A DNA stretch of 64,000 nucleotides from Desulfobacula sp. (GTDB taxonomy: Bacteria > Desulfobacterota > Desulfobacteria > Desulfobacterales > Desulfobacteraceae), in assembly GCF_030145145.1 (NCBI RefSeq), contig NZ_JAQYWD010000027.1, positions 27,091 through 91,090 on the forward strand, given 5' to 3'. Shown here in pieces: positions 41,945-58,869 of the stretch. Within the stretch, counting starts at the first letter, position 1. Each line of letters begins with the position of its first letter. The translations under genes and the position numbers were made by a program. Under the pieces are notes generated by a model, which made no database searches, was not told the origin of the DNA, and was given only the letters and a program-made list of their open reading frames with translations.

Positions 41945-42047
41945 TAGAAATTTAATCAGCGTGTAAGTCGCTATTATAAAATGGGCTCGATTATTGACGA
42001 CAGGATTAAACTTGATACATGATAACCGGTTGAACAAAGAAGGATCA

Positions 42048-43607
42048 ATGAAATTTACGGATCAGAGTCCCCAGAGATCAAAACTGCCTGAAGGCAGCGA
42101 TCTCAACTGGAACCAACTCATTCTGGGCATGAGAAAGACGACCAAAGAGTTTGTTGAAAACGTTCTTGAAAATATTATAGAGTCCATTGTGATAACAAAC
42201 CTGGACGGATACCTGGTTTTTTTTAACCGGTATTCAGAGCAGATGTTCGAATTTAAAGCCCATGAAGTGCTGAATCAGCATATTGTCATCCTAGGGGCAA
42301 AAACACCAGACATTTTAAAACAAATTAAAAACAATCAAACCTTTAACGGAGAGATAATCCTTAAAACAAAATCCGGCAGGCATTTTCCGGCACATGTGAG
42401 GTGTGTGCCCCTTAAAAATGATAAAGACAAGCCTATTGCCATGGTCGGAGTGGCACGGGATCTAACCAGAGAAAGGGAAAAACAACGGATTGACACTGAA
42501 ATGGCCCGGTTGAAAGAGTTTAACGACAGCCTCATCGAGTCCCTGAACGATGGAATTCAAATCATAAACTTTGAGGGCAATATTGAGTTTGTTAACAAAC
42601 AACTGGCCAATTTTTTAGGGTATGAACCTGATGACCTTTTAGGCGAACACTATACAAAAATTGTGACAATTGAAGACCGACCAATATTTCAAAATTTAAT
42701 CGATTCACCAACAGATTCCAAAGTAAAAGCGACTTTTGAAACCAGTTTTATTTCTAAATCCGGTAAAAGAATTCCTTTTTTTGTGGGGAGTTCACCTCTA
42801 AAAGGGAGCCGGGTGTCGGGCATTGTAACTGCAGTAACGGATATCTCTGAAACTCAGAAATTAAAAGAAGAGTTGTTTCAGTCTGAAAAAATGTCTTTAA
42901 TAGGAACGCTTGCCAGTGAAGTAGCGCATGAAATAAATAATCCACTTGGCGGACTAATCATTTCTGTTCAAATGCTTATAGAGGATATTGAAAAAGGTGA
43001 GCTGGATCTTAAAATGGCCAGAGAGGAACTTTTAGGTATTGAAAATGACGCCCGCCGCTGCAGAAACATAACCAGAAAATTACTTGATTTTTCACGTCGC
43101 AAGCCGGAAGGACGCAAACCCTTAAATCTGAATAAACTTATTGAAGCCTCCCTTATCCTTGTCCAGCGTCAGGCAGAAATTGAAAATATAAATTTCATCA
43201 AAAACTATTATGAAAAATTACCCTCGGTATGGGGAAACTCAAACAGTCTTCAACAGGTAGTAATGAATCTGGTTAAAAATGCCTGTGATGCCATGCCAAT
43301 GGGGGGACAAATAATTATTACCACCGAAGTATTGGATATCGGAGAACAAAATCCATGGATCCGAATGTCAATTGCAGATACCGGACCCGGCATTTCCAGT
43401 GATCACAAAGACATGATTTTTGACTCTTTTTTTACAACCAAGGAAGGGGGTAAAGGAACCGGACTTGGACTTGCTGTTAGCAAACGGATTGTCGAAGAAC
43501 AGGGAGGGAATATGACCTTTGAAAATGGCAAAGGGAAAACCGGTGCTATTTTTTATGTTTTGCTTCCCAGTTTACCCGAGTATAAATCGGAGAATAGTCA
43601 TGACTGA
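42048..43607 (+). CDS. Soluble PAS-PAS sensor histidine kinase
   Basis: 519 residues from ATG 42048 (AGAAGGA just upstream); an earlier in-frame ATG at 41994 lacks a Shine-Dalgarno. No membrane helices. Two PAS domains (about 30-145 and 160-275) carry FFNRYSEQMFEFKAHEVL and FVNKQLANFLGYEPDDLLGE; HisKA follows with ASEVAHEINNPLGGLI, then the HATPase (NLVKNACDAMPMGG, DTGPGIS, GTGLGLAVSKRIVEEQGG). It is of the NtrB/AtoS type. Its end overlaps the regulator gene by 8 bases, so the pair is coupled. The PAS domains could sense an aromatic ligand or redox state; which one is unknown. Confidence 0.93.
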   Translation: MKFTDQSPQRSKLPEGSDLNWNQLILGMRKTTKEFVENVLENIIESIVITNLDGYLVFFNRYSEQMFEFKAHEVLNQHIVILGAKTPDILKQIKNNQTFNGEIILKTKSGRHFPAHVRCVPLKNDKDKPIAMVGVARDLTREREKQRIDTEMARLKEFNDSLIESLNDGIQIINFEGNIEFVNKQLANFLGYEPDDLLGEHYTKIVTIEDRPIFQNLIDSPTDSKVKATFETSFISKSGKRIPFFVGSSPLKGSRVSGIVTAVTDISETQKLKEELFQSEKMSLIGTLASEVAHEINNPLGGLIISVQMLIEDIEKGELDLKMAREELLGIENDARRCRNITRKLLDFSRRKPEGRKPLNLNKLIEASLILVQRQAEIENINFIKNYYEKLPSVWGNSNSLQQVVMNLVKNACDAMPMGGQIIITTEVLDIGEQNPWIRMSIADTGPGISSDHKDMIFDSFFTTKEGGKGTGLGLAVSKRIVEEQGGNMTFENGKGKTGAIFYVLLPSLPEYKSENSHD

Positions 43608-45012
43608 GAATTTTAAAATTTTAGTTGTAGATGACGAAGATTCCGTTCGTAAACGCTGCATCCGGCTTTTATCCAGGCAGGGATATAATGTGATTGGTGC
43701 TTCCGACAGTTCAAGTGCTTTGTCACTGCTGCAAAACCAAAGAACAGGGTTCGATCTGTTACTTGTGGATATCCGGATGCCCGGGATGGACGGTATCCAG
43801 CTGTTGAAAAAAATAAAGACGCAAAGACAATCTATAGAAGTCATCATCATGACAGGTTATGCTACAGTGGAAACTGCTATAAAATCAATGAAATACGGCG
43901 CCTTTGATTATCTTACCAAACCCTTTGACAAAGATGAACTGCTGCACGCAATCGATAAAATTGTTAAAATAAAATCGTTGCAGCAAGAAATCAAAGAACT
44001 CAAAAGCCAACTCACAAAGACCAATGAAAAACCCATAGTCATTGGAAATTCTTCAGCCATGAATAAGGTCATGCGGGTCATTGAAAAAGTGTCCCCTGTA
44101 GACTCTAATATCCTTATCCAGGGAGAAAGCGGAACGGGAAAGGGGTTTGTTGCAAAAGCGATTCATGCCAGGAGTAAACGAAAAAAACACCCCTTTGTTG
44201 TGGCGGACTGTGCTGCATTATCAGGTAATATATTGGAAAGCGAACTTTTCGGTCACGTTAAAGGTGCTTATACCGGTGCACATGCCGACCGCGAAGGATA
44301 TTTTAAAAGGGCGGACAAAGGCACATTGTTCCTGGATGAAATTGGGGAAGTGCCATTGGATTTGCAGGGAAAATTGTTAAGGGTCGTTCAAGACAAAGCT
44401 TTTGTAAAATTAGGTTCCACAGAAATGATTAAAGTCGACACCCGTATTATTGCTGCTACCAATCGCAATCTGGAGGACATGGTTTCAAAAGGTGAGTTCA
44501 GAGAAGATTTGTTTTATCGCTTAAATATTATCACACTGTCTTTGCCGGCTTTAAGAGAAAGGCGGGAGGATATCCCCTTACTAGCAAGACATTTCCTGAA
44601 ATGGTATACAGCAAAGCTCAATTTTGATACGCTTTTTCTTCCAGATGAAGTTCTGGAAACGATTGTTGCCTACGACTGGCCGGGCAATATCCGTGAATTG
44701 GAAAATGCCATGCAGCGGGCGATTGTTCTGGCGGAAAATAACACCTTATCCATTGACGGTTTATTCCCGGCCCGGGTTGAAAAAGATCAGGTTTGTTTTA
44801 ATTACTCTGATCTCCTTAAAAAGAAAATAAGCTATCAGGAAATGAAGCAGGATGTCCTGCAGAACTTTACGAAAGAATATCTGACTCAGTGCCTTATTTT
44901 TCATAAAGGCAATATCACAAATGCCGCAAAGACCATGGGCATGCGCCGGACGTCGCTTCAGCGGCTGGTGAATCAAACCGGCCTCGACAGCCAGTTGTTT
45001 AAAAATCAGTAA
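43600..45012 (+). CDS. Sigma-54-dependent response regulator (NtrC family)
   Basis: 470 residues from ATG 43600. Receiver domain (ILVVDDEDSVRKRC, phospho-Asp in LLVDIRMPGMDG, Lys in YLTKPFDKDE), AAA+ domain with Walker A GESGTGKGFVAKAIH, a GAYTGA loop that contacts sigma-54 (standard GAFTGA with Tyr), Walker B GTLFLDEIGEVP and the Arg-rich RELENAMQRAIVLAE, then a Fis-type helix-turn-helix (NITNAAKTMGMRRTSLQRLV). It is translationally coupled to the upstream kinase. A sigma-54 promoter lies 109 bases after its stop, ahead of the hydroxybenzoyl-CoA reductase genes, making it the likely activator of the catabolic island. Confidence 0.95.
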   Translation: MTENFKILVVDDEDSVRKRCIRLLSRQGYNVIGASDSSSALSLLQNQRTGFDLLLVDIRMPGMDGIQLLKKIKTQRQSIEVIIMTGYATVETAIKSMKYGAFDYLTKPFDKDELLHAIDKIVKIKSLQQEIKELKSQLTKTNEKPIVIGNSSAMNKVMRVIEKVSPVDSNILIQGESGTGKGFVAKAIHARSKRKKHPFVVADCAALSGNILESELFGHVKGAYTGAHADREGYFKRADKGTLFLDEIGEVPLDLQGKLLRVVQDKAFVKLGSTEMIKVDTRIIAATNRNLEDMVSKGEFREDLFYRLNIITLSLPALRERREDIPLLARHFLKWYTAKLNFDTLFLPDEVLETIVAYDWPGNIRELENAMQRAIVLAENNTLSIDGLFPARVEKDQVCFNYSDLLKKKISYQEMKQDVLQNFTKEYLTQCLIFHKGNITNAAKTMGMRRTSLQRLVNQTGLDSQLFKNQ

Positions 45013-45120: not shown

Positions 45121-45136
45121 TGGCATATCTTTTGCT
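45121..45136 (+). promoter_or_regulatory. Sigma-54 (-24/-12) promoter of the aromatic catabolic operon
   Basis: TGGCATATCTTTTGCT. The GG of -24 and GC of -12 have exactly the spacing of the consensus TGGCACG-N4-TTGCW, and 9 of the 12 defined positions, including all the key ones, are kept apart from the C and G after TGGCA. Transcription should begin near 45147, about 40 bases before the first structural gene. An NtrC-family activator is encoded immediately upstream. Confidence 0.75.
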
Positions 45137-45187
45137 TTGTCTTCAGATAGTTTCCGAATAACCTATCCTGTAAATAAAGGAATTATT

Positions 45188-46195
45188 ATGTATTTACCAA
45201 AATTCACGCTTGAAAGCCCCAAATCAATAGAAGAAGCGGTGGTCCTCCTGGGTTCCGGTGAGGGCACCAAACTTTTATCAGGTGGTACGGACCTTTTCCC
45301 AAGAATGAAATATAAACTTTGTTCTCCAGAGGTCCTTATAAGCCTGAAAGGCTTGCCATCGGCTACTCCCCAAATTGATGAAGACGGTAAATTGATTATA
45401 GATGCCAAGATGTCTTTGACAACAATCACGCTTTCTTATGAAATCCGGGAAAAGGCGCCTTTGTTAGCGCTGGCGGCCCAAAAAGTTGCCACCCGTGAAA
45501 TAAGAAATATGGGGACGCTCGGTGGTAATATCTGCCAGGAAACTCGATGCCTTTACCTGAACCAAACGCATACGTTTCAATTTACAGAGCCTTGTTTGAA
45601 GCGCGGCGGAAAAGAATGCTATTTCGCTCCTAAAGGGAAAAAGTGCTGGGCCACCTTCATGTCTGATATTGCGCCGGCACTTTTTTGTCTTGATGCAAGG
45701 GTGATTATTGCAGATTCAAATGGTGAGCGAGAAATAAAAATCGAAGACGTTTATACCAACGACTCCCTTAAACCCTTATCACTAAAACCGGATCAAATTA
45801 TCACAAAGATTATTGTACCGGAAACACAGGGCTTGTCCGGGAGTGGATTTGCAAAATTTACCGTAAGGGAAACCATTGAATTTGCAGTTGTAAATGTCGG
45901 GGTTTTTTTAGAAGCAGAAAAAGACCTTAAAACCTGTAAACAGGTGAGAATTTCAGTGGGAGCAATCTTTGGGGGACCCCAGAGAGCATTGGAAGCCGAA
46001 GACTGGCTGGCAGGAAAAAGCTTGTCCCAAGAGAACATAAACACAGTTTCACAAAAAGTTGCCAGGTCTTTAAAAATAATATCCCACCATGGGTATTCAA
46101 AAAGCTATCTAACCGAGTGCTTGAAAACTCAATCAAGGCAGGCCCTTAACGATGCTGTAAAAGGACTCACTGATCAAAGTAACAAGGAGGGGTAA
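45188..46195 (+). CDS. hcrB: 4-Hydroxybenzoyl-CoA reductase-type beta subunit (FAD and extra [4Fe-4S])
   Basis: 335 residues from ATG 45188 (AAAGGAA upstream). FAD-binding subunit of a xanthine-oxidase-family molybdoenzyme: LLSGGTDLFPRMK and TREIRNMGTLGGNI bind FAD. An insertion after the FAD motif holds Cys121, 136, 144 and 153. The spacing (15, 8, 9) nearly equals that of the Cys122/138/146/155 ligands of the extra [4Fe-4S] cluster in Thauera aromatica HcrB, as I recall them. This loop is a hallmark of hydroxybenzoyl-CoA reductases, which run electrons toward the substrate, unlike xanthine dehydrogenases. It is first in the operon behind the sigma-54 promoter. Confidence 0.88.
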   Translation: MYLPKFTLESPKSIEEAVVLLGSGEGTKLLSGGTDLFPRMKYKLCSPEVLISLKGLPSATPQIDEDGKLIIDAKMSLTTITLSYEIREKAPLLALAAQKVATREIRNMGTLGGNICQETRCLYLNQTHTFQFTEPCLKRGGKECYFAPKGKKCWATFMSDIAPALFCLDARVIIADSNGEREIKIEDVYTNDSLKPLSLKPDQIITKIIVPETQGLSGSGFAKFTVRETIEFAVVNVGVFLEAEKDLKTCKQVRISVGAIFGGPQRALEAEDWLAGKSLSQENINTVSQKVARSLKIISHHGYSKSYLTECLKTQSRQALNDAVKGLTDQSNKEG

Positions 46196-46197
46196 GG

Positions 46198-46689
46198 ATG
46201 ACAACAACGCATAAAAAAAGAATCATTGAACTGACAGTTAATGAGGAAACGTATGAGCTGGCAGTTGAGTGTCAGGAAACACTGCTGGACGTATTACGCA
46301 ATAATTTGGGGTTGACGGGGACTAAAGAAGGATGCGGTACGGGTGAATGTGGCTCCTGCACCGTATTGCTGGAAGGAGAACCGATATTGGCCTGCCTGAT
46401 GCTGGCAGTTGAATGCGAACATAAAAAAATCGAAACCATTGAGGGACAATCTATTAATGGTGATCTGACACCGGTCCAAGAAGCTTTTCTCGAAAAAGGG
46501 GCCGTACAATGCGGCTTTTGTACATCTGGTATGGTGATGGCCTCTACGGATCTATTAAAAAGAAATCCTGATCCCAGCAAAGAGGACATCATGGAGAGCC
46601 TGGGAGGCCATCTATGCCGCTGTACGGGATACAATAAAATAATGGAGTCTGTGCAGCATGCTGCAAAGCTGAATAGAGACAACACCTAA
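46198..46689 (+). CDS. hcrC: 4-Hydroxybenzoyl-CoA reductase-type gamma subunit (two [2Fe-2S])
   Basis: 163 residues, equal to the known HcrC size. The plant-type [2Fe-2S] ligands are Cys46, 51, 54 and 66 (GCGTGECGSCTVLLEG), and the second cluster uses Cys105, 108, 140 and 142 (VQCGFCTSGMVM and CRCTGY). It feeds electrons from the cluster/FAD chain to the molybdenum site. A strong GGAGGGGTAAGG Shine-Dalgarno overlaps the hcrB stop; the alpha subunit gene follows by 12 bases. Confidence 0.92.
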   Translation: MTTTHKKRIIELTVNEETYELAVECQETLLDVLRNNLGLTGTKEGCGTGECGSCTVLLEGEPILACLMLAVECEHKKIETIEGQSINGDLTPVQEAFLEKGAVQCGFCTSGMVMASTDLLKRNPDPSKEDIMESLGGHLCRCTGYNKIMESVQHAAKLNRDNT

Positions 46690-46701
46690 AGGAGCATGAA
46701 A

Positions 46702-49032
46702 ATGAGTGAGTTGGATTATGTCGGAAAACGAATGTTGAGAAAGGATGGTCCGGACAAGGTAACAGGCAAAGCAATCTACACAGTTGACATAAAACTAAAG
46801 GGACAGTTGGTTGGAAGGATACTCAGAAGCCCTCATGCCCATGCACGGATCCTGGACATTGACACCCGCCTTGCCTTGGCGGTGCCGGGTGTAAAAGCCG
46901 TGATTACCGGTAAAGATACCCTGGGCATAAAACATGGCTTTGTTGAAACACCTCGTTATCCAGCGGATCAATATCCCCTGGCAATGGACAAGGTTCGATT
47001 TATTGGTGAAGAAGTTGCTGCAGTGGCAGCCACGGATGTGTATGCCGCGGACGAAGCACTGAGGTTAATAAAAGTGACATATGAACCTCTGCCTGCGGTC
47101 TTTGATCCTGAAGACGCCATGATGCCGGGGGCACCGGAAATTCATCCTTCTCATCCCAAAGTAAAAGAGGATCTGGTCAATATCGGCGGTAAAACGACTT
47201 CGGGCTGGGGTGATGTGGAAGCAGGGTTTCAAGAGGCTGACTATGTGAGGGAGGACCGGTTTGAAAGCCATCTGAGGACCCACGGATTCCTTGAGCCCCA
47301 CGCCACTGTGGCCAGCTTTGAGGCAGACGGAAAGTTGAATGTGTGGACATCGTCCCAGGGCCCGTTCATCAAACGGGCAAAAATCGCCAGAACCCTGGGA
47401 CTTCCACAATCATCCGTAAGGGTGAAAAAAGCCTATGTCGGGGGTGCCTTTGGAGGGAAGATAGATCTATACACCCATGAATTCTGTGCAGCGCTTCTAT
47501 CCATGAAAACGTCCAGACCCGTGGAGATCATTGCCACCCGGGAAGAGATATTCACTGCCTATCGTCACGGTCAACCCATGATTGTAACGGTAAAAACCGG
47601 TGTTAAAAAAGACGGTACCATCGTGGCACAGCAATTCAAAACCATCAATAATTCAGGAGGCTATCGCGGCAGCGGCGTGGTCGTCATTTTTCTGGTGTGG
47701 GGGTTTGCAATGGCTCCCTATCGAATTCCCCATATGAAATATGAAGGATACTCCGTTTATACCAACAACCCGATTCGATCTCCGCAAAGGGGGCATGGTG
47801 CGCCCCAGATGCGATTTGCAGTGGAATCTCAACTGGACATGATTGCGGCTGAACTGGGCATCAGCCCCATTGACATTCGTCTGAAAAATGCACGGGTTTC
47901 AGGTGAAATGCTGCCCAATGGAGATAATGTGCATAATTGCGGTCTCACGGATTGCATTCTGGATATTGCCAAGCACACGGATTTTACAGCAAAATTCGGG
48001 AGCACCCGAACTGAAAAAAAAGGACGATATCAGAAAGGCATTGGTATTGGGGTCAGTGCCTACTTCGGGGGATCATTGATTTACCCCAACAGTTCGTCTG
48101 TCATTGTAAAAATGAACGATGACGGCAGTGTCTCCCTGCTGACCGGTGCCCTGGATATCGGACAGGGAGCAGAAACCATCCTGTGCCAGATTGTTGCTGA
48201 AGAACTTAAAATCCCCATGGAAGAGGTTCAGGTGTTTGCGGCCGATACTGAAACCACCCCCGTGGACATTGGGGTGTGGATCAGCGGCAATGCCTATGTA
48301 ACTGGTAATGCCGCCCGTGAGGCAGCCGGTGACGTCCGTCAAAAATTGATGACGCTGGCTGCCGAAGAACTCAAAGCCGACATTGAAGACCTGACATTCC
48401 AGAACAAACGCATCTATATATCCGGCCAGCCGGAACGTTCATTATCATATGAAAAACTTGTGGCTTTAAGCATTCTGAAACATAGGGGGGATCCTGTCAT
48501 TGGAAATGGGCATTGGCGTACGATGCGGGATGAACCTTTCCACCCGAGTCTTGCAACGACAAAGGGAAGATGGACTGAAAACTATGCCTTTGACGCCCAG
48601 ACAGCTGAAGTGGAGGTGGATACTGAGACGGGGAACATCCGTCTGCTGAAGGCCGTGACCGCTCATGACTGTGGATTTCCCATCAACCCCCTTCTGGTGG
48701 AAGGGCAGATTGACGGTCAGGTATCCATGGCCCTGGGTCATGCCTTTATGGAAGAAATAATGATGGAGAAAGGTCGTACCCTGAATCCGAGCTGGCTGGA
48801 TTACCGGATGCCCTCCATCTGTAATATTGCGGACTCAGAACACATCGACGTGATCACGGAACGTTACCAGGTCGGGAAACCTTACCGGACCAAGGAGGTT
48901 GGTGAAGGCTATGTGTCCGCCATCCTGGCAGCCATTGCCAATGCCGTATACGACGCTGTAGGTGTAAGGCTTTATTCAACGCCGTTTACACCGGAAAAAG
49001 TTTTGGAAGGGCTAAATAATATAAATCTTTAA
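46702..49032 (+). CDS. hcrA: 4-Hydroxybenzoyl-CoA reductase-type alpha subunit (molybdopterin)
   Basis: 776 residues from ATG 46702; an ATG at 46696 touches the AAAGGAG site and is unlikely. Molybdenum-cofactor subunit of the xanthine oxidase family: GGAFGGKIDLYTHEF (about residue 246), the later GALDIGQGAETILCQI, and KEVGEGYVSAI with the active-site Glu. Together with the beta and gamma genes it forms a complete alpha-beta-gamma enzyme expected to remove a ring hydroxyl reductively from hydroxybenzoyl-CoA. Exact ring position (4-hydroxy, or 3,4-dihydroxy as in protocatechuyl-CoA) is not readable. No gene for molybdenum-cofactor insertion is intact nearby. Confidence 0.9.
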   Translation: MSELDYVGKRMLRKDGPDKVTGKAIYTVDIKLKGQLVGRILRSPHAHARILDIDTRLALAVPGVKAVITGKDTLGIKHGFVETPRYPADQYPLAMDKVRFIGEEVAAVAATDVYAADEALRLIKVTYEPLPAVFDPEDAMMPGAPEIHPSHPKVKEDLVNIGGKTTSGWGDVEAGFQEADYVREDRFESHLRTHGFLEPHATVASFEADGKLNVWTSSQGPFIKRAKIARTLGLPQSSVRVKKAYVGGAFGGKIDLYTHEFCAALLSMKTSRPVEIIATREEIFTAYRHGQPMIVTVKTGVKKDGTIVAQQFKTINNSGGYRGSGVVVIFLVWGFAMAPYRIPHMKYEGYSVYTNNPIRSPQRGHGAPQMRFAVESQLDMIAAELGISPIDIRLKNARVSGEMLPNGDNVHNCGLTDCILDIAKHTDFTAKFGSTRTEKKGRYQKGIGIGVSAYFGGSLIYPNSSSVIVKMNDDGSVSLLTGALDIGQGAETILCQIVAEELKIPMEEVQVFAADTETTPVDIGVWISGNAYVTGNAAREAAGDVRQKLMTLAAEELKADIEDLTFQNKRIYISGQPERSLSYEKLVALSILKHRGDPVIGNGHWRTMRDEPFHPSLATTKGRWTENYAFDAQTAEVEVDTETGNIRLLKAVTAHDCGFPINPLLVEGQIDGQVSMALGHAFMEEIMMEKGRTLNPSWLDYRMPSICNIADSEHIDVITERYQVGKPYRTKEVGEGYVSAILAAIANAVYDAVGVRLYSTPFTPEKVLEGLNNINL

Positions 49033-49115: not shown

Positions 49116-51287
49116 ATGTTAAAAGACAATTATACCACTTTTATGTATGATGAAAAATTAGACTTAGACAAGACAGATTATTGGATTTATTGTGCAGCCG
49201 ATACCCCTCCTGGGAGACCTCGCACGCCCATGTTCGACTGGGTCTTTATGAATTCAAGCAATTGGGGAGCCAATTACGCCTGTTACAAGATATCAATCCC
49301 CTCTGCAAATAGTATAGCCTTCAGATCATACAACGGTTATGGATTTATGACAGTGACTCTGCCAGCATCGGAAGATGAAGTCAAAAGGCGTTCTGCTAAA
49401 TTTAAAACAGCTTTAGGCTATCTGATCCAAAATTATGACCAGCTCTGGGCGGAAGCAAAATTAAAATTGATAGGTTATACCAAAAAACCAAAAGAATTTG
49501 ATTTCGATAATGCTAGTTGGTTCGAAATGAGTCAACTTTTCAGAGATAGAATGAGCGCTACACGGAAAATGTACGAAATAGTATACTATTTTTCGGAAGG
49601 GCTGGGTACAACATATCTTTTATTCGTTGATCTTTGCAAAAACATGTTGGGAATTGATGAATCAGAACCCCTATTTCGAAAACTTTTTACTGGATTGCAA
49701 AATGCCACCTCCTCAACCTCCTTGGTCGAAAAAGGCTTACACAGGCTGTCTCAAAGGGCTAACGAATTAGGCCTTGCCAATGTTCTCATAGAAAATAAAC
49801 CTGAGGAAGTTGTTTCTCAAATGGAAAGGACTGAATCCGGGCAGCTGTGGAATAAGGAACTCATTGAATTCCTAAATATCCATGGGTGGAGATGCCTAAT
49901 TGAGTCAGACTATATAACACCAACTTGGGTTGAAGAACCCTCGCTTGCGATAGTGCATATTCAGCAATATTTAAATAAAGGTCCGGATTTTGAACTCGAC
50001 TTGATGATCGAAAGAGAAGCAAAAGAAAGGGAAAACGTAGAAAAAGAGTTGATTGAGAAAGTCCCCTTAGACCAAAGGGATTGGTTCGAGACTCTTTTAA
50101 GGATAGCACAGCAATTTACCATATGGCGATTAGAGCATATTTACTATTGTGAAGTTTACCAGCATGCAATAACTCGTCATGTCTTAATGCAAATTGGTAC
50201 CAAAATTTCTAAGGTTGAATGTATTGAAAGAGCTGAAGATATCTTTTTTCTCGTCCCCGAAGAACTCTATAAAGCATTAATTCACCCAGAGTCATGTAGT
50301 CTTAAACCGCTTGTAAGGAACCGTAAGACTAAATGGGAAGAAAATAAAAAAATCATCCCTCCTCCCCTTTTTTCTAAGATTGATCCTGATCAAGCGGCCA
50401 ATCTATTTCTTAAGTCCAAGGATCCGATGGCAATAGAACTTGCGATAGGGATGACGAGTTTAATCAATACGAAACATGAAGTAAATTTGGGCGGGCAGAT
50501 TGCTTCCATGGGTATCGCTGAAGGACCGGCAAGGGTAATTCTTTCCGCCGAACAGTTGGGTGAGATTCAGGAAGGTGATATTTTAGTTGCACCAATATTC
50601 CGGTCCAGTTGGAGCCCTGTTTTCCCTCTGATCAAAGGAGCCGTCATTGATAGAGGTGGTATTCTGTCAGATGCGGCAATTCTTGGACGAGAGTATGGCA
50701 TTCCGGTGATCACCAATGTTATTGATGGTTCATTAAAAATTAAGACCGGCCAACGTATAAAAATCGATGATAGCTTAGGGGCTGTTCTAATTGTTAGTCC
50801 TTTAGAAGGAAAGAAACTCCTTATCGTAGACGATGAAGCTGACATACTTGACACCTTGGAAGATTTACTACCAATGTGTGAATTAACCAAGGCTGATACA
50901 TTCCAAAAGGCAAAAACGCTTCTGGAAAACGAACAATTTGATTTGGCAATTTTGGATATAATGGGGGTTAAAGGCTATGACCTTTTGGCAATTGCTAAAA
51001 AGGAAAAAGTGATGTCCGTAATGCTAACGGCCCATGCATTATCCCTCGATAGTACTGTACGTGCCTACAAAGAAGGAGCCGTTTGTTATGTTCCAAAAGA
51101 AAAATGTTTCGAAATTGAAGATATTTTAATAGATATTTTTGAAAGCAAAGGAAAACAGGAGTTTTTTTGGTCACGCTGGCTCGACAGATTTGGCCCATTT
51201 TACGACAGTAAATTTGGACTTGGATGGCAAAATAAGCATAAAGAATTTTGGGAAATATTTAAGAAAACAACTCCTCTTGATTTGTGA
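49116..51287 (+). CDS. Phenylphosphate-synthase-alpha-like protein with His-to-Asp mobile domain and fused receiver domain
   Basis: 723 residues. Residues 1-450 resemble the large N-terminal part of phenylphosphate synthase alpha. Residues about 460-565 are a PEP-utilising mobile (swivelling) domain, but the motif that normally reads G-G-x-x-x-H is GGILSDAAILGREYGIP: Asp519 replaces the phospho-carrier His. A full CheY-like receiver follows (LLIVDDEADI, phospho-Asp614 in AILDIMGVKG, MLTAHA, YVPKEK), then a 45-residue aromatic-rich tail. It cannot act as the usual phospho-His carrier, so it may be a regulatory or structural paralogue of the active alpha subunit at 55629-57293. The start follows a GGGGGA-like site; the DNA is AT-rich. 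Confidence 0.82.
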   Translation: MLKDNYTTFMYDEKLDLDKTDYWIYCAADTPPGRPRTPMFDWVFMNSSNWGANYACYKISIPSANSIAFRSYNGYGFMTVTLPASEDEVKRRSAKFKTALGYLIQNYDQLWAEAKLKLIGYTKKPKEFDFDNASWFEMSQLFRDRMSATRKMYEIVYYFSEGLGTTYLLFVDLCKNMLGIDESEPLFRKLFTGLQNATSSTSLVEKGLHRLSQRANELGLANVLIENKPEEVVSQMERTESGQLWNKELIEFLNIHGWRCLIESDYITPTWVEEPSLAIVHIQQYLNKGPDFELDLMIEREAKERENVEKELIEKVPLDQRDWFETLLRIAQQFTIWRLEHIYYCEVYQHAITRHVLMQIGTKISKVECIERAEDIFFLVPEELYKALIHPESCSLKPLVRNRKTKWEENKKIIPPPLFSKIDPDQAANLFLKSKDPMAIELAIGMTSLINTKHEVNLGGQIASMGIAEGPARVILSAEQLGEIQEGDILVAPIFRSSWSPVFPLIKGAVIDRGGILSDAAILGREYGIPVITNVIDGSLKIKTGQRIKIDDSLGAVLIVSPLEGKKLLIVDDEADILDTLEDLLPMCELTKADTFQKAKTLLENEQFDLAILDIMGVKGYDLLAIAKKEKVMSVMLTAHALSLDSTVRAYKEGAVCYVPKEKCFEIEDILIDIFESKGKQEFFWSRWLDRFGPFYDSKFGLGWQNKHKEFWEIFKKTTPLDL

Positions 51288-51388: not shown

Positions 51389-52450
51389 ATGACTGATGGA
51401 AATGAATGGATAAAGTTCTTTGAAGAATGTGGTCGTAACGACACTTCCCTTGTCGGAGGCAAATGCGCCAACTTGGGAGAAATGTGTAAGATTGGGGTGC
51501 CGGTTCCCCCAGGATTCGCGATTACGACGAAAGTTTATGATACTTTTTTAAATGCAACAAATATTGCAGGAAAAATAAAAAAATATATTGATGAATCCAT
51601 TTCTAACCCAACTACAATGGAAGAGCTTAACAAAATGGCAAATGATTTACAAAGCTTTATTTTGGCAGGAGAAATACCAGAAGAACAATCGGCTGCTATA
51701 TCAGATGCATATGACTCCTTGTGTCAAAAGCTTGGGATAAGTGATGTTGCTGTTGCTGTTAGGTCTAGCGGAGTTGCTGAAGATTCTGCTACAGCAAGCT
51801 TCGCTGGTCAATATGAGTCCTATCTTAATGTTATAGGAAAGGAATCTCTATTTAAAAATATTAAGGAATGTTGGGCCAGTGCTTTTTCACCACGCTGTAT
51901 CTCTTATCGTATCCATAATGGTCTTGGACTTTTTGCTGGTTCGATTAGCGTGGCAGTACAAAAGATGGCCAAATCACGTTCGGCAGGGGTAGGATTCACG
52001 GCTAACCCAAATACCGGGGATAGAGGGAAAATCGTTATTGAGGGCAACTGGGGAACCGGTGAAAGTGTTGTTCAAGGAATATCAAAGGTAGATATCTTTT
52101 CAGTATCTAAAGAAACTTTAGAAATAGTTGAACAACAGATAAACAAAAAAACAAGGCAAATTGTGATAAAAGAAAAAGGGATTTTAGAGATGGAAATTCC
52201 TGAAAATCAACAATCTTTGCCGTGCTTAGAACCCGAAGAGGTAAAATTATTGGCTAAAATCGCAAGAGATACAGAATTGCATTATGGGGTTCCTTTAGAC
52301 ATAGAATGGGCTGTGGACGTTGAGCTTGAATTTCCTGACAATATTTTTCTCGTACAAGCTCGACCAATCACTGCCATTATAGAAAAAAAGAGCTCTACTG
52401 AAACAATTCTTGATATGGCCTGCAGTCGCTTATTCCCCAGCAAAATTTAA
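51389..52450 (+). CDS. ppsB: PEP synthase/PPDK N-terminal ATP-binding protein (phenylphosphate-synthase-beta-like)
   Basis: 353 residues, only the ATP-grasp nucleotide-binding part of PEP synthase, the size of phenylphosphate synthase beta of Thauera. Visible motifs are VGGKCANLGEMCKIGVPVPP, VAVRSSGVAEDSATASFAGQ (ATP phosphate loop), MAKSRSAGVGFTANP and the C-terminal YGVPLDIEWAVD with IFLVQARPI. It should transfer the beta-phosphoryl of ATP to the mobile-domain His of an alpha partner encoded separately. AAAGAGGAG lies 11 bases before the start. It sits between the two alpha-like genes. Confidence 0.85.
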   Translation: MTDGNEWIKFFEECGRNDTSLVGGKCANLGEMCKIGVPVPPGFAITTKVYDTFLNATNIAGKIKKYIDESISNPTTMEELNKMANDLQSFILAGEIPEEQSAAISDAYDSLCQKLGISDVAVAVRSSGVAEDSATASFAGQYESYLNVIGKESLFKNIKECWASAFSPRCISYRIHNGLGLFAGSISVAVQKMAKSRSAGVGFTANPNTGDRGKIVIEGNWGTGESVVQGISKVDIFSVSKETLEIVEQQINKKTRQIVIKEKGILEMEIPENQQSLPCLEPEEVKLLAKIARDTELHYGVPLDIEWAVDVELEFPDNIFLVQARPITAIIEKKSSTETILDMACSRLFPSKI

Positions 52451-52503: not shown

Positions 52504-53763
52504 ATGACTAAAACGATAGTAGTAATAGGGACTTTGGATTCCAAAGCAGAAGAGGTGCTTTTTGCAAGGAATCAAATTGTACAGAGGGGTTATAAGCCGA
52601 TTGTTGTTGATTTGAGTGTCGGGAGTAAACCGGCTGTTCAAGGTGATATTACCTGTGAACAGGTTGTTAAGGCGGGTGGAGGAGATATCCATGACATTTG
52701 GGGCAATCCTGACAGGCCCAGAATTAACAAGATGGTAACCGATGGCGCCATAAGTGAAGCTTGTGCACTCTACAATGCCGGAAAATTGGATGGGATCATC
52801 GGTATCGGGGGTGCAGGCGGTACTCTTATTGAGACAGATATCATGAAATCACTCCCTTTTGGAGTACCTAAATTCATGGTTTCGAGCAATGCGGGCGCAC
52901 GGGGTTTTGCTTCAAGGTATTTCGGCACGAAAGATATTACGATGATGCACACTGTTGCGGATATTGCCGGACTAAACAGAATGCTGAAATCCTTGCTTTG
53001 CCAGGCTATTGCCGCAATCTGCGCAATGTCAGAAATCTCCGCACCATTGGCATCCAAAAACGGCACAACCGAGAAAAGACAGAAAACAATTGCATTGTGT
53101 GAACTTATGCTCAGTGCCAAAAGCGTTCAGCATATTAAGAAACTCTTGGAAGATCAGGATTATCAGGTGATTGTATTTATGGCGACCGGGGTGGGGGACA
53201 CAGCTATGGAGGAACTGATTGATGAGGGGTTTTTTGATGCTGTGATAGACCTTTCGCCGGGCGGAATACTGGATAGCATCATCGGGGGGACCCGTAAGGC
53301 TTGTTCACAAAGATTGGAAACAGCAGGTAGCAAGGGTATTCCACAAGTCATTGCTCCAGGCGGATTAGACTTTATTACCCCGTCCCGGTCTAGATACAAA
53401 CCGGAGTATGACGTACGAAAAAGGTTTGAACCTGATAAGCTGAGGTTACAAATTCGCTCAAGCAAGGATGAGCTTATACAGTGCGCGAGAATTATTGCCA
53501 AAAAACTGAATAAATCCAAAGGTCCCGTTAAATTTCTGATTCCCTTAAAAGGATGGTCGAGAATCGATGGGCCTGGAAGGCCCCTTGATGATCCTGAAGC
53601 CATCAGCGCATTTTCTAAAGAATTAAGGGAAAACTGCAAACCGGAAATTGAGGTTGTGGAAATTGATGCCTGGATCGAAGATTCAGAGTTTGGTTTTGCG
53701 TTGGTGGAAGCCCTTAATGGAATGACAAACAAAGAACTAAACGCTGGCGAGCTTACTTACTGA
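52504..53763 (+). CDS. UPF0261 / Tm-1-like ATP-binding domain protein
   Basis: 419 residues, the full family length. N-terminal segment TIVVIGTLDSKAEEVLFARN, the glycine-rich IGIGGAGGTLIETDIMKSLP and VSSNAGARGF, a mid HTVADIAGLN, and a C-terminal half with MATGVGDTAMEELIDEGF and FLIPLKGWS. The family (homologous to the N-terminal part of plant Tm-1) binds nucleotide; its bacterial function is not established. Here it is embedded between the phenylphosphate-synthase-like beta gene and the CoA ligase gene, which suggests a role in the same pathway. Confidence 0.88.
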   Translation: MTKTIVVIGTLDSKAEEVLFARNQIVQRGYKPIVVDLSVGSKPAVQGDITCEQVVKAGGGDIHDIWGNPDRPRINKMVTDGAISEACALYNAGKLDGIIGIGGAGGTLIETDIMKSLPFGVPKFMVSSNAGARGFASRYFGTKDITMMHTVADIAGLNRMLKSLLCQAIAAICAMSEISAPLASKNGTTEKRQKTIALCELMLSAKSVQHIKKLLEDQDYQVIVFMATGVGDTAMEELIDEGFFDAVIDLSPGGILDSIIGGTRKACSQRLETAGSKGIPQVIAPGGLDFITPSRSRYKPEYDVRKRFEPDKLRLQIRSSKDELIQCARIIAKKLNKSKGPVKFLIPLKGWSRIDGPGRPLDDPEAISAFSKELRENCKPEIEVVEIDAWIEDSEFGFALVEALNGMTNKELNAGELTY

Positions 53764-53892: not shown

Positions 53893-55548
53893 ATGAGGCC
53901 CACAAGATTCACCGATGATATGATCAAAGAATATACAGAAAAAGGTTATTGGAAGGAAACTACCTACGCTGATCTTTATGAGCGCAATGCTAAGGAATAT
54001 GGCGATAAGGTTGCACTTGTGGATGATTCCGGCCACAGACTTACCTGGGCTCAAGCAAACCAGGCCATAGACAGACTCGCTCTGAAATTGGTGAAATTGG
54101 GATTTGAGAAGGATGATATCCTTGTGATCCAACTGCCGAATCGAGTCGAAGTTGTATTGCTTCTCGCAGCCTGTGAAAAAGTAGGGATCATTTCTTCTAC
54201 TCTTGTAAGAACTTTGCGTCATAAAGAGATCGAATATTTACTCAAGATTACAGAAGCAAAAGGCTATGTCAGTGTTTGGAAGTTCAGAGATTTTGATTAC
54301 TACGAAATGGTTCAGGATATACGTTCCGATTTGCCGAAATTGAAGTACATTTTTACTTGTGGGGATGAAACACCTGAGAAAGCAATAAGTATTGATGAGA
54401 TTTTAAATGAACCTCTTGAAGAGAAGTATTCTATTGAAGAATTTAAAAAGCGTCAAATCCGGTTCGATGAGGTGGGTTGGCTCGGGCTCACCTCTGGAAC
54501 CACCGGTTTCCCGAAAATAACTCAAACACCCATGGCGCTTGCTACATCCGTCGCCCCTTCCCACATGTCTAAGATCAAAATGACAGGTGATGATGTTGTA
54601 GGGGCCCTTTGCCCGGTTTCCGGCGCAGCAAGAGGCCTGTTGCGATTTAACCCTTTTGTTGGTGCAACGGGTGTTCTCATGGAGCATTTTGATGCTGAAA
54701 AAGCGTTCAAATTAATCGAAACTGAGAAAATTACCATACCGATGATGGTGCCCGCGCAGTTGGCAATGATGGCTCAAAATCTAAACTATACCAAATATGA
54801 CTTAAGTTCATTACGCGTTTTTCAGGTTTCTGGCGCCCCCCTTCCGCCTCATGTGGCAAATGATGTGGAAAAGAAATTCAATTGTATGGTGATTAATCAT
54901 TACGGTGGAATGGATGCCGGTTCCGTAGCAAGCGTTGATGTTGATGATTCTCTTGAAGTACGCCGGTTTTCCGTGGGGAAACCTCATCCAGGCAATGAGG
55001 TAAAATTGCTTGATGACGACGGGAAGGAAGTCGGGGTTGGAGAGGTTGGAACTGTCTATTTTCGAGGACCCACCTCTGTTGGCGGCTACTTTAAAGATCC
55101 TGACATGACAAATGAAGCTTGGGGAACCGGCTTTTTTTGTATGGGTGATCTAGCGAAAAAGGATGAGAAAGGGAACCTGTATGTTGTCGGTCGGAAAAAG
55201 GATTGCATCATTCGAGGAGGATATAATATCTACCCTACTGAAGTGGAAAGCATCCTTACGACACATCCAAAAATCGTGGCTGCAGCCCTTGTAGGGTATC
55301 CTGATCCAATAATGGGGGAAAGGGCTTGTGCTTATGTTGTTGTCAAAAAAGGTGAGATATTCAGTTTTGATGAAATGGTGGCATTCTTTAAAACTAAGCA
55401 GATTTCAGCCAATAAAACTCCGGAACGAATGGAAATAATAGACGAAATGCCGTTGGTAAGTGATATGAAGTTAGACAAAAAGGTGCTGAAGGAGGATATT
55501 CTCAACAAGGTAAAGGCCGAGGAAAAAGGTAGTAATATAAAAAGTTAG
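53893..55548 (+). CDS. Acyl/aryl-CoA ligase (AMP-forming)
   Basis: 551 residues of the ANL superfamily. The phosphate loop is LTSGTTGFPKITQTP, with the adenylate motif HYGGMDAGS, the hinge GDLAKKDEKGNLYVVGRKKD and a C-terminal Lys in VSDMKLDKKVL. Related to 2,3-dihydroxybenzoate-AMP ligase and cyclohexanecarboxylate-CoA ligase types. In this context it would activate the carboxylated phenol (a hydroxybenzoate) to its CoA thioester, the substrate of the reductase encoded upstream. AAAGGAGG precedes the ATG by about 7 bases. Substrate is inferred from context only. Confidence 0.88.
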   Translation: MRPTRFTDDMIKEYTEKGYWKETTYADLYERNAKEYGDKVALVDDSGHRLTWAQANQAIDRLALKLVKLGFEKDDILVIQLPNRVEVVLLLAACEKVGIISSTLVRTLRHKEIEYLLKITEAKGYVSVWKFRDFDYYEMVQDIRSDLPKLKYIFTCGDETPEKAISIDEILNEPLEEKYSIEEFKKRQIRFDEVGWLGLTSGTTGFPKITQTPMALATSVAPSHMSKIKMTGDDVVGALCPVSGAARGLLRFNPFVGATGVLMEHFDAEKAFKLIETEKITIPMMVPAQLAMMAQNLNYTKYDLSSLRVFQVSGAPLPPHVANDVEKKFNCMVINHYGGMDAGSVASVDVDDSLEVRRFSVGKPHPGNEVKLLDDDGKEVGVGEVGTVYFRGPTSVGGYFKDPDMTNEAWGTGFFCMGDLAKKDEKGNLYVVGRKKDCIIRGGYNIYPTEVESILTTHPKIVAAALVGYPDPIMGERACAYVVVKKGEIFSFDEMVAFFKTKQISANKTPERMEIIDEMPLVSDMKLDKKVLKEDILNKVKAEEKGSNIKS

Positions 55549-55628
55549 ATATTCAAGCCGGTCTATACCACAGCGGAACAGATGAAGGGTTGGAACTTAG
55601 TTTTAATTTTTTTAGAAAGGAGATCGAA

Positions 55629-57293
55629 ATGCATTACGGAAGAACACAAATGCCATGGGAAATTACGGATTATGATCTGGAACACTATCCGGTTTGGGTG
55701 CGTACGCCAGCCCATACTGAGCCAGTCATGACACCCCTGTATTGTGAATTTTGGTATGGATACATGGTCGATGGCATACGTCGGGGTTGTGGAAAAAATT
55801 CACTTCCAACTACTTTGGGCTATTTCTGGAAATTATACAAGGGCCATGGTTACCTAACCCGAGGCATCCCATTGACGGAAGAAATTCCGCAGCGCGAGGC
55901 CAAATATCGAGAAAAGATGGCTGAAATCATAGAAGATCCTTTCGGATACGCTGATAAGCTGTTTGTTAAATTCGATGAGCTAATGGCCCCTTTCTCCAAG
56001 ATGAATATAGAGCAACTGTCGCGGGAGGAGCTCATAGATCATATACATGATATCATCGACTTGCATATAAAAAGCATTGCTCATTACTTTGACGGATGGT
56101 TCGCCATTACACCACTGCCCGGACTTTTCCAGCAGCTTGCAGGGGATTTAGCTGGCCTTGAACCTACTGATCCCCTCTATTCCAAATTGACCATCAGCAC
56201 CGGTAATCCTCTTTATCAATCCAACAGTGGAATTGCTGACCTTGCCCGCCTCGCTTTGGATTTAAAGCTGGATAAATATTTCAAACTGTCTGATAAAGAT
56301 GTTTTGAAAGCGCTGGAACAGGATGAGGTGGGAAAAAAGTGGCTGAATTCCATGGATAAATTTTTAGAAATCAACAAGTGGAAGTTGCTACGTATGTATG
56401 AATTCTGCGAGCCTGGATGGTATGATAAACCCGCATTACTTGTAGCAGACATAAAACGATATATGGAAGTAGGCGGCGTTCATAAAATTGACGAAGACCG
56501 TGATAAAAAGAAAGAGGAAAGGGATTCATTGACCAAAGAGTTTCTGAGTAAAATTCCCGAAGCTCAGAGGGGGTTGATGGAAAAACTGCTTGTGTGCTCT
56601 CGTGCTGCCAATTACTGGAGTGAGGGATCAGCCTGGCATGGTGAGTTTAAACGAATGGCATTTGGAAGACGATGTTTTATTGAATGTGGCAAGAGATTGG
56701 TACAGGATGGTGCCATTGAAAAAGTTGACGATATTTTTATGCTCTTTACCGACGAAATCATTAGTACTCTCGGGAACAGAGAGAAAGGACGTTATATTCA
56801 ACTCATCAACGAGCGCAAAAAAGAATGGGAAGGTTATAAAGCTCTTACACAAAAACAAGATGAAATTCCATCCTTTTTGGGCGATCCTAATCAAATACCA
56901 GAAATGCTCCGACTGGATCCGACACTATCAGTGAGCATTTCACAACCGAAAGAAAATGCAGAGAAAGTTGGCGCCTTGTGTGTCGGTGGTGCTGGAAGTC
57001 CTGGTATTGTTGAGGGTGTTGCGCGCGTCATTTGGGATGAGACACATTTTGACGAGATTAAAAAAGGTGAGATCATGGTATGTCCTATGACGAGTGCTAC
57101 ATGGACACCATTGTTCGGTATTATCAAGGCTCTGGTCTGTGATAGCGGAGGATCATTGTCCCACCCGGTAATTGTAAGTCGGGAATATGGTCTCCCGGCC
57201 GTCGTAGGAACTGGAGACGCTACCCAAAAGATCCAAACAGGAGACAAACTCAGAGTGGATGGGGATTTGCTTAGGGTTTATAAAATTTCCTGA
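55629..57293 (+). CDS. ppsA: Phenylphosphate synthase alpha-like PEP-utilising protein (catalytic His intact)
   Basis: 554 residues from ATG 55629 (AAAGGAG upstream); a longer frame from TTG 55590 is less likely. The alpha-helical N-terminal region carries a Trp- and Tyr-rich segment near residues 15-45, then a linker and the mobile domain from about 430. His512 lies in GGSLSHPVIVSREYGLP, the normal site of phosphorylation in PEP synthase, PPDK and phenylphosphate synthase. It should accept phosphoryl from the beta-like protein and pass it to a phenolic hydroxyl. It is a paralogue of the His-less receiver fusion at 49116-51287. No third (CBS-type gamma) subunit is seen in the window. Confidence 0.85.
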   Translation: MHYGRTQMPWEITDYDLEHYPVWVRTPAHTEPVMTPLYCEFWYGYMVDGIRRGCGKNSLPTTLGYFWKLYKGHGYLTRGIPLTEEIPQREAKYREKMAEIIEDPFGYADKLFVKFDELMAPFSKMNIEQLSREELIDHIHDIIDLHIKSIAHYFDGWFAITPLPGLFQQLAGDLAGLEPTDPLYSKLTISTGNPLYQSNSGIADLARLALDLKLDKYFKLSDKDVLKALEQDEVGKKWLNSMDKFLEINKWKLLRMYEFCEPGWYDKPALLVADIKRYMEVGGVHKIDEDRDKKKEERDSLTKEFLSKIPEAQRGLMEKLLVCSRAANYWSEGSAWHGEFKRMAFGRRCFIECGKRLVQDGAIEKVDDIFMLFTDEIISTLGNREKGRYIQLINERKKEWEGYKALTQKQDEIPSFLGDPNQIPEMLRLDPTLSVSISQPKENAEKVGALCVGGAGSPGIVEGVARVIWDETHFDEIKKGEIMVCPMTSATWTPLFGIIKALVCDSGGSLSHPVIVSREYGLPAVVGTGDATQKIQTGDKLRVDGDLLRVYKIS

Positions 57294-57447: not shown

Positions 57448-58869
57448 ATGAACGATTTACGCGATTTCTTGGCAAAGTGTAAAGAAAAAGGAGAGTTGCA
57501 CACAATTAGTGCAGAAGTGGATTGGAATTTAGAGCTTTCTCACGTGGCCAAATTAAATGAAGAGGCTGGGGGGGCAGGTCTTCTTTTTGAAAATATAAAG
57601 GGTTATGATATTCCAGTGTTTACCAGTGCTTTTACTACGTCATCTCGTATGGCAATAGCATTACGCCAACCGAGCCAATATTCCATGTCCAATCTTGCCC
57701 GAGAGTGGATGCTTTTAACTACAAAGGAGCTTATCAAACCCAAATTGGTTGATAGTGGTCCAATAATGGAAAATATTATTGAGGGCGATCAAATCAATTT
57801 GCTGGATTTCCCTGTACCTTTTTTTAATAAATTGGATGGTGGTAGATTCATCGGGACAGCCGTATATCTTATCACCAAGGACCCAGACACTGGATGGGTA
57901 AACCTTGGAACTTACAGAATGCAATTATATGATAATGATCGTTGTGGCGTTCAGATGATAAAGGGGAAACATGGGGACCTAACACTCAGGAAATACAAAG
58001 AAATGAACAAAAAGATGCCTGCCATAGCTGTTATTGGAGGCGATCCCCTTTTGTTTCTGGTTGGAAGTAGTATGATTCCCTTCCAAACTGATGAGTACGA
58101 TGTCGTGGGAGCGTTACGGGGAGAACCTTTGGACATAATTGAAAGCGATCTTACAGGCCTGCCATTACCGGCACACGCCGAAATTGCACTGGAAGGGGAG
58201 ATTGATCCGAATGATTTTATGGAGGAGGGTCCTTTTGGGGAGTACACCGGTTATTATTCAGGTGAGCCTACACTCAAAACCTATCTAAAAGTTAAAAGAG
58301 TATTGCATCGTAATAACCCTATTTTTTGGGCGTGTATCGTTGGAAGACCGATTAATGACGTTTGTATGATACAATCATTAAACCGTACTGCCAGCCTGTG
58401 GGCAGACCTGGAAACAATGAAGATTCCCGGCATAAAATCAGTTTATATCCCCGCTTCATCCAGCGGTCGGTTTTGGGCTGTAGTGTCTGTGCAACAGCTT
58501 TATCCCGGCCATTCAATGCAGGTAGGTACTGCCGTTATCTCCACAACTACAGGCAGTTATGGACTCAAGGGAGTTATCGTTGTAGAAGATGACATTGCAG
58601 CTGATGACTGGGATCAGGTATTATGGTCCCTTTCAGTAAGATATGACCCCAAACGAAGCACCCAAATTATCAATCGAGGACGTTCGACATCTTTAGACCC
58701 AGCACTTCCGATTGACTCCAGACAAATCGTTTCTCGAATCATTATGGATGCATGCACTCCGTTCGAATGGGAGGATAAACCCAAATCAGTATTGTTGGAT
58801 AAGGATATGTTGGAACAGGTACGGAAACGCTGGAAAGAATTTGGGTTTGAATACGAGCCTTCTTTTTAG
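57448..58869 (+). CDS. UbiD-family prenylated-FMN (de)carboxylase
   Basis: 473 residues. The catalytic Arg is probably Arg157 (GTYRMQL), and the Glu pair is Glu260 and Glu265 in EGPFGEYTGYY, matching Arg173, Glu277 and Glu282 of fungal Fdc1. Prenyl-FMN and metal contacts are expected around DNDRCGVQMIKGKHGD. Members carry out reversible aromatic (de)carboxylation, including the alpha and beta subunits of phenylphosphate carboxylase. As the last gene of the island it would carboxylate the phosphorylated phenol to a hydroxybenzoate. Neither ubiX (the cofactor prenyltransferase) nor further carboxylase subunits are visible here. Confidence 0.9.
   Translation: MNDLRDFLAKCKEKGELHTISAEVDWNLELSHVAKLNEEAGGAGLLFENIKGYDIPVFTSAFTTSSRMAIALRQPSQYSMSNLAREWMLLTTKELIKPKLVDSGPIMENIIEGDQINLLDFPVPFFNKLDGGRFIGTAVYLITKDPDTGWVNLGTYRMQLYDNDRCGVQMIKGKHGDLTLRKYKEMNKKMPAIAVIGGDPLLFLVGSSMIPFQTDEYDVVGALRGEPLDIIESDLTGLPLPAHAEIALEGEIDPNDFMEEGPFGEYTGYYSGEPTLKTYLKVKRVLHRNNPIFWACIVGRPINDVCMIQSLNRTASLWADLETMKIPGIKSVYIPASSSGRFWAVVSVQQLYPGHSMQVGTAVISTTTGSYGLKGVIVVEDDIAADDWDQVLWSLSVRYDPKRSTQIINRGRSTSLDPALPIDSRQIVSRIIMDACTPFEWEDKPKSVLLDKDMLEQVRKRWKEFGFEYEPSF

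Follow-up and report, generated by a model that had tools for sequence, protein, structure and literature searches.

A 64,000-nucleotide stretch of the Desulfobacula sp. assembly GCF_030145145.1 (contig NZ_JAQYWD010000027.1, positions 27,091 to 91,090; the whole stretch is hereafter called the window) contains, at 49116..51287, a gene for a protein of 723 amino acid residues (ATG at 49116, stop codon ending at 51287) in which an alpha subunit like that of phenylphosphate synthase is joined to a receiver domain. The genes and domains of the cluster described below lie on the forward strand. Residues 1-483 (49116..50564) form a substrate-binding and helical part like that of rifampin phosphotransferase (RPH), in which Asp and Leu replace His29 and Glu339 of the active-type relatives. 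The swivel domain, or phosphoenolpyruvate (PEP)-utilizing mobile domain, follows at residues 484-551 (50565..50768; PF00391 and alignment, E = 1.9e-14), and the receiver domain at residues 569-662 (50820..51101; PF00072, E = 1.3e-8), both Pfam scores being above the curated cut-offs. A conserved helical tail, which is also found on separate receivers, closes the protein at residues 684-723 (51165..51284).

The swivel motif of the fusion protein reads GGILSDAAILGREYGIP, with Asp519 (50670-50672) at the position of the phospho-carrier His, whereas that of the paralogue at 55590-57293 reads GGSLSHPVIVSREYGLP, in which the His is residue 512 counted from the ATG at 55629 (525 from the listed TTG). 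A preliminary description of the locus, made from the sequence, had set Asp519 against His512 and had called the receiver complete; re-reading of both motifs at these coordinates confirmed the former, and the presence of the acidic pair Asp572-Asp573, the phospho-acceptor Asp614, Thr638 and Lys661 the latter. The receiver has the (beta-alpha)5 order in AlphaFold models (predicted template modeling scores 0.63 and 0.74), which are of single chains and were used for the order of the fold and not for the placement of the domains relative to each other. The protein has the RPH-like substrate-binding plus swivel fold of dikinase alpha subunits (PpsA/HpeH/Pas-alpha), and an ATP-grasp beta subunit is encoded alongside it (51389-52450; likewise in two further genomes, G567 and G815), but the phospho-carrier His of the GGxxxH motif is absent.

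Fused homologues and loss of conserved residues

A search of 5.8 billion proteins, in which scoring was limited to the 7,994 candidates with the most words in common with the query, gave 60 matches; among the matches listed, 19 were full-length proteins with both domains, the window's own (P0001) included. Whole-genome searches added two, one from G567 (8 residues from P0018, a near-duplicate) and one from G815, bringing the total to 21. The alignment comprised 102 rows, namely 21 fused, 80 unfused, and one short sequence (P0021) that ends before the motif and was left out of the counts. At the His column the fused rows have Ser (7), Asp (6), Asn (4), Glu (2), Gly (1) and His (1), and the unfused rows His (79) and Pro (1), so that His is absent from 20 of 21 fused against one of 80 unfused rows (Fisher p 6.5e-19, ignoring shared ancestry). 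The row with Pro (P0022) is the single exception among the 80. All 21 fused rows, whose identity to the window protein reaches as low as 47%, keep a full-length frame and the five receiver residues (DDDTK). The preliminary description had proposed that the residue at the His position be tabulated among fused homologues; with 20 of 21 lacking His, the possibility that all keep it is refuted, and a receiver without its acidic pocket, the other outcome named there as contrary, did not appear. Its claim of an Asp in place of the His stands for the loss of the His and fails for the Asp, as Ser, Asp, Asn, Glu or Gly occupies the position across the family. A sequencing error or a chance fusion is ruled out by the 21 fused rows, and Asp-specific chemistry is made unlikely by the variety of residues at position 519.

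The genome samples overlapped: 389 genomes were drawn from the order, 395 from the phylum and 85 from the order of G567, with E cut-offs of 1e-70, 1e-70 and 1e-140, respectively, which remoter fusions would escape, and matches whose locus was not fetched were classed as unfused by frame length. Three genomes carried fused genes: that of the window in the order draw, those of the window and G567 in the phylum draw, and G567 and G815 among the 85 genomes, a repeat search of which found no further fused gene. A plasmid location found no support: in a tblastn search of 72,556 plasmid records, 168 had some match and none covered 80% of the fusion protein.

To compare conservation, we set the 19 fused rows without His (P0001-P0019 minus P0003, plus G815; G567, as a near-copy of P0018, was left out) against 47 rows consisting of 46 with His, including the fused P0003, and the Pro-bearing P0022. 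Among the 92 columns conserved at 95% in the comparison group, 49 are intact in 18 or all 19 of the fused rows without His, and 12 are retained in no more than five. The residues His29 and Glu339, present in 100% of the 47 rows, are lost in 19 and 18 of the 19, respectively, along with His519, and further losses are those of Glu117 (19 rows) and His156 (16 rows). Five distant alpha subunits (Pas-alpha of the window and of G567, P0046, L147 and L076) have His29, Glu339 and His519 without exception, with Lys in place of Glu117 in all five and Tyr in place of His156 in two. From this conservation we infer that His29 and Glu339 are active-site residues. The fused P0003 retains His29, Glu339, His519, Glu117 and His156, and is apparently a live alpha subunit carrying a receiver, that is, an intermediate; P0006, among the first branches after P0003, retains Glu339. 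Because the residue at position 519 varies across the fused rows and other conserved residues are gone as well, Asp519 appears to be nothing special, and the clade of fused proteins without His, which has lost more than one odd residue, is predicted to consist of inactive pseudoenzymes. The fusion protein should therefore be unable to carry phosphate from ATP. The equivalent His-to-Gln replacement in HpeH (H581Q) left no detectable activity (PMC12167813).

A phylogenetic tree was reconstructed from 49 of the 102 rows, picked by hand and with the receiver excluded, by a quick method with support from the Shimodaira-Hasegawa-like approximate likelihood ratio test (SH-aLRT) and no bootstrap. In this tree the fusion is one change and the His/non-His label two changes, P0022 being one of them. 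A single branch (SH-aLRT 99) unites the 19 fused rows without His and leaves out both P0003 (fused, His) and P0020 (unfused, His), so that the pseudo-phosphocarrier with a complete receiver of the preliminary description proves to be kept across a whole clade. The support for all 20 fused rows on one side is just 49. The simplest history would be fusion first and loss of the active site later, after which position 519, no longer constrained, drifted between Ser, Asp, Asn, Glu and Gly with the receiver intact; fusion apparently preceded the loss of His, since one fused member (P0003) still has it. As support for the placement of the root of this group is weak, the fusion may instead have been earlier, with the receiver lost in the line of P0020. 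The ordered series of unfused with His, fused with His and fused without His offers a model for the birth of a pseudoenzyme regulator.

The gene cluster and its aniline-type counterpart

Downstream of the fusion gene lie genes for a full-length beta subunit (51389..52450; Pas-beta/PpsB-like ATP-grasp protein, PF01326 and PDB sequence matches), a UPF0261 protein (52504..53763), an acyl/aryl-coenzyme A (CoA) ligase (53893..55548), an active-type, Pas-alpha-like alpha subunit with His512 (55629..57293, counted from the ATG at 55629) and a UbiD-type carboxylase (57448..58869; family named from the cluster match). Upstream are three genes of a molybdenum (Mo) enzyme, encoding the flavin adenine dinucleotide (FAD) subunit (45188..46195; PF00941), the 2Fe-2S subunit (46198..46689; profile matches) and the Mo subunit (46696..49032). 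The nearest models of the FAD and Mo subunits are 4-hydroxybenzoyl-CoA reductase beta (TIGR03195) and alpha (TIGR03194), respectively, both below cut-off, and for the FAD subunit the ATG at 45188 is a likelier start than the listed TTG at 45137. In G567 (L131) the genes run in the same order, from the Mo subunit through fusion, beta, UPF0261, CoA ligase and alpha to UbiD, with identities to the window of 80, 48 (receiver 60), 62, 66, 75, 79 and 79%, the first value being for the last 297 residues of the Mo subunit, where the G567 contig begins.

G567 is very probably Desulfatiglans anilini, as judged from three published figures (PMC7500099). The His of its ani-type alpha subunit is at 512 and that of its phenol-type-cluster alpha subunit at 571 from the chosen ATG, both as published, and the UbiD protein of its phenol cluster shares 51.71% with that of L131, again the published value; the last figure alone singles out no one gene, because a third UbiD protein of G567 gives 51.72%. 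The two alpha subunits of G567 share 25.5% over aligned pairs (21.4% over all columns) against 26.73% published (PMC7500099). The ani cluster of D. anilini includes 03866 (a CO-dehydrogenase-type subunit), 03868 (Pas-beta), 03870 (ligase), 03871 (Pas-alpha, His512) and 03872 (Ppc-beta) (PMC7500099). Given that G567 is D. anilini, the window has the ani gene order (Mo subunit, X, Pas-beta, UPF0261, ligase, Pas-alpha with His512, Ppc-beta), with the Mo subunit at the position of 03866, the UPF0261 protein presumably at that of 03869, the ligase at that of 03870, a putative 4-aminobenzoyl-CoA ligase, and the carboxylase at that of 03872. By the same gene order, the fusion gene would be locus 03867.

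The operon of the window is thus likely the counterpart of the ani (phenylphosphoamidate synthase) cluster and, because of this match, its substrate is likely aniline rather than phenol. The preliminary description had proposed a gating of aromatic phosphorylation; the step that would be gated is most likely, more precisely, the phosphorylation of aniline. Pas-alpha/Pas-beta phosphorylate phenol too in vitro, and Pas-alpha and Pas-beta plus two carboxylases were sufficient for 4-aminobenzoate in vitro (PMC7500099). In the main text of that paper, 03867, 'response regulator' and 'two-component' have no occurrence, and 03867 is outside its assayed proteins.

In G815 (L152), where Glu takes the place of the His in the fusion protein, the next gene encodes an unfused alpha subunit with His (42% to the pseudo-alpha of the window) and the one after it a beta subunit. 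The dead alpha gene is therefore co-directional with genes for an active-type alpha and a beta subunit in all three genomes with readable flanks (window, G567 and G815), in agreement with the paralogous alpha subunit of the same operon noted in the preliminary description; the operon context of the fusion refers to these three, G567 being a near-twin of P0018, and not to P0002-P0017, P0019 and P0020. Among genes named by eye, the G815 trio is followed by old-yellow-enzyme-like flavoprotein open reading frames (ORFs) and a molybdopterin oxidoreductase, which hints at another substrate, and transposase-like ORFs adjoin the fusion gene.

UPF0261 recurs in aromatic phosphorylation/carboxylation operons (window, L058, L060, L076, L084, L090-L092, L131, L147, L162). 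A second, phenol-type cluster of the window genome (C71, L147) consists of alpha, beta, UbiD, ligase and UPF0261 genes. At 42 kb of the window the G+C content changes from about 0.52 to 0.38-0.48 (region 42000-64000), and 3' of the operon lie genes for a RepB-type primase (60842-61630) and an AAA_22 ATPase (61862-62689). From the drop in G+C and these two genes, the cluster looks acquired.

Separate receivers and the upstream kinase

Within its own genome, the receiver with its tail has matches at eleven other places (34-52% identity), of which eight lie in frames of 165-206 amino acids. The family of separate receivers has a conserved, Trp-rich helical tail and many members in other Desulfobacterota. 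The 89 loci compared yielded 85 receiver ORFs (the caller missed the other four, which were left out), and all 85 keep DDDTK, although the search pattern itself required Asp614 for L013-L092; 79 are of 225 amino acids or less and six are longer. At 10 of 73 receiver loci (L020-L092) a beta or phenol-type UbiD gene lies within 6 kb, in seven of them with UbiD directly upstream. Counted by distance from the receiver as an internal control, there were 14 beta/UbiD matches within 3 kb (378 kb read), two at 3-6 kb (282 kb) and none beyond (274 kb). The order alpha (with His)-beta-receiver occurs in 7/7 loci L013-L019, a biased set found via the receiver pattern. Judging from these neighborhoods, the receiver is a mobile part of aromatic-kinase operons, either fused or standing alone as a small protein. 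Genes that by eye look like those of CoA ligases are among the five neighbors on either side in 16 of the 85 receiver neighborhoods. The receiver is otherwise desulfobacterial, but L023 and L037 are on contigs titled Bacteroidales and Euryarchaeota, which are possibly misbinned.

Upstream of the Mo-enzyme genes, the Pfam scan identified a PAS-PAS-HisKA-HATPase sensor kinase (41994..43607), whose gene is overlapped by that of an NtrC/AtoC-type sigma-54 activator with a receiver of its own (43519..45012; Pfam/family scan). Ahead of the first Mo-enzyme gene is a sigma-54 -24/-12-like site, TGGCATATCTTTTGCT (45121..45136, one mismatch). With 28 found against 36 expected, the window shows no enrichment of such sites, and position is the sole argument for this one. 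Because the kinase and activator genes overlap and the site precedes the first Mo-enzyme gene, the first job of the pair is probably transcription. The preliminary description had suggested that a signaling kinase, perhaps this one, gates aromatic phosphorylation; nothing ties it to the receiver of the fusion protein, which it may or may not feed, and kinases like it occur within 3 kb of separate receivers at no fewer than 3 of 82 loci, a lower bound because 3 kb of flank on either side could be read at 37 of them.

Possible role and comparison with known systems

We consider the chances about even that the fusion protein is a third, regulatory subunit of the neighboring aniline kinase (Pas-alpha/Pas-beta type), set by phosphorylation of its receiver. 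The pseudo-alpha part would pair with the active alpha subunit or dock on the beta subunit; HpeH, a characterized alpha subunit, is partly dimeric, being a mixture of monomer and dimer (PMC12167813). A histidine kinase, or the phospho-His of the active alpha subunit, would phosphorylate Asp614, and the phosphorylated receiver and the helical tail would then shift the pseudo-subunit and move ATP-dependent aniline phosphorylation up or down. We favor stimulation by phosphorylation, as the gamma subunit of Thauera aromatica phenylphosphate synthase stimulates, with the sequence leaving the direction unsettled. Some sister operons encode a receiver of this kind on its own, as a small protein. Pas-alpha and Pas-beta operate without a 03867-type protein in the published assay, and a missing gamma subunit has been suggested as a possible explanation of why aniline turnover in D. 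anilini is lower than that of phenol in T. aromatica (PMC7500099). Tentatively, the pseudo-subunit might be this missing gamma-type subunit, through which two-component signaling would control the ATP-costly first step in the use of aniline and perhaps of other aromatics. If true, the output of a two-component system would be a metabolic kinase complex, neither DNA binding nor the making of a second messenger, and a pseudo-subunit born by fusion of a receiver to a working alpha subunit, followed by loss of the active site, would let phosphorylation of the receiver alter the activity of the kinase. As the fusion gene adjoins the Pas-beta gene, its product is a concrete candidate regulator that could be added to the existing Pas-alpha/Pas-beta assay.

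Several points weigh against such a regulatory subunit. No kinase is tied to the fusion receiver, and the fusion protein diverges faster between the window and G567 (48%, receiver part 60%) than its operon mates do (62-80%). The docking surfaces may have changed too, because just the 49 of 92 conserved columns mentioned above are unchanged in the fused rows without His. The receiver family mostly adjoins unrelated genes, and its usual partner may be something else. Within the stretches read, such a receiver occurs in one (L141) of 15 hand-picked unfused alpha-beta loci (L132-L146) and in neither the D. anilini-like phenol cluster (L162) nor the phenol-type cluster of the window genome (L147), the stretch read ending at or near the cluster in both; not all such kinases, therefore, need a receiver.

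Other roles were also considered. The dead alpha subunit might act as a decoy that sequesters Pas-beta or aniline and lowers activity until phosphorylation of the receiver releases it. Docking on the beta subunit could survive, 13 of the 27 conserved columns of residues 484-560 being intact in 18 or more of the 19 fused rows without His, but HpeH and HpeI form no stable complex (PMC12167813), so that competition would be weak, and we regard this role as unlikely. We assign a low probability to an aromatic sensor, in which the dead alpha subunit would bind aniline and the receiver would compete with or feed the kinase/NtrC pair, tuning sigma-54 transcription. The pair and the site at 45121-45136 do lie directly upstream, but the changes of His29, Glu339 and, mostly, His156 make aromatic binding doubtful, and the upstream genes are seen in the window, the G567 contig starting within the Mo subunit.

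Phosphotransfer from His to Asp is ordinary receiver chemistry, and on this rests the idea that the phospho-His of the active alpha subunit donates to Asp614, the receiver then reporting a charged, undischarged kinase (no aniline) and feeding back. The few loci (at least 3/82) with kinases like that of the window near receivers leave the phosphodonor open, which suits this idea, but the usual docking site of receivers is the helix bundle of a histidine kinase and we know of no precedent for transfer from an alpha-subunit phospho-His to a receiver, so that it seems improbable to us. Fast divergence and the drift at position 519 would fit a relic being lost; the full-length frame and the five receiver residues in 21/21 rows, down to 47% identity, make that very unlikely. 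It is hardly credible that Asp519 itself accepts the phosphoryl group as an acyl phosphate: six of the 21 fused rows have Asp, but fourteen others have Ser, Asn, Glu or Gly, the H581Q form of HpeH is inactive (PMC12167813), and other conserved residues are also gone.

Returning to the regulatory subunit, we found no description of a fusion of this build in the accessible open-licence literature on phenylphosphate synthase, dikinases, response-regulator outputs and pseudoenzymes, in line with the preliminary description, which knew of none; a term search of the accessible text of two papers on benzene (PMC13101534, PMC13416013) found nothing on it either. From single-domain response regulators, with which the receiver and its tail have the above matches in the same genome, the fusion protein differs by the attached dead enzyme subunit. 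RPH (PDB 5fbt) differs in having the ATP-grasp domain in the same chain, the catalytic His and no receiver. With the gamma subunit of T. aromatica, the fusion protein would share the proposed role of a third, non-catalytic, stimulating subunit, but sequence kinship is not among the findings, the fusion protein yielding PEP-utilizers and receiver domains only. The gamma subunit (PpsC) presumably bears the label of CBS-type domains, by which alone it was compared; the fusion protein (P0001) has none, with only PF00391 and PF00072 found by Pfam at E up to 0.01. The gamma subunit of T. aromatica is a 24 kDa protein that stimulates the enzyme, its exact function being stated as unknown (PMC6114531).

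The closest known systems are Pas-alpha/Pas-beta of the D. anilini ani cluster (PMC7500099), which is alike in operon order and, via G567, has neighbors that are 62-80% identical, and the dikinases HpeHI, CreHI and PpsAB, which share the substrate-binding plus swivel build of the alpha subunit and the separate ATP-grasp beta subunit, but from which the fusion protein differs by the absent catalytic His and the added receiver (PMC12167813). In the accessible text of the latter paper the terms receiver and response regulator do not occur, and its authors deduce that these dikinases are free of the phospho-Thr control of PEP synthase (PMC12167813). For the regulation of the two-component kinases of aromatics the fusion protein is accordingly a candidate regulator: the enzyme family is known, and the putatively signal-linked pseudo-subunit appears to be new.

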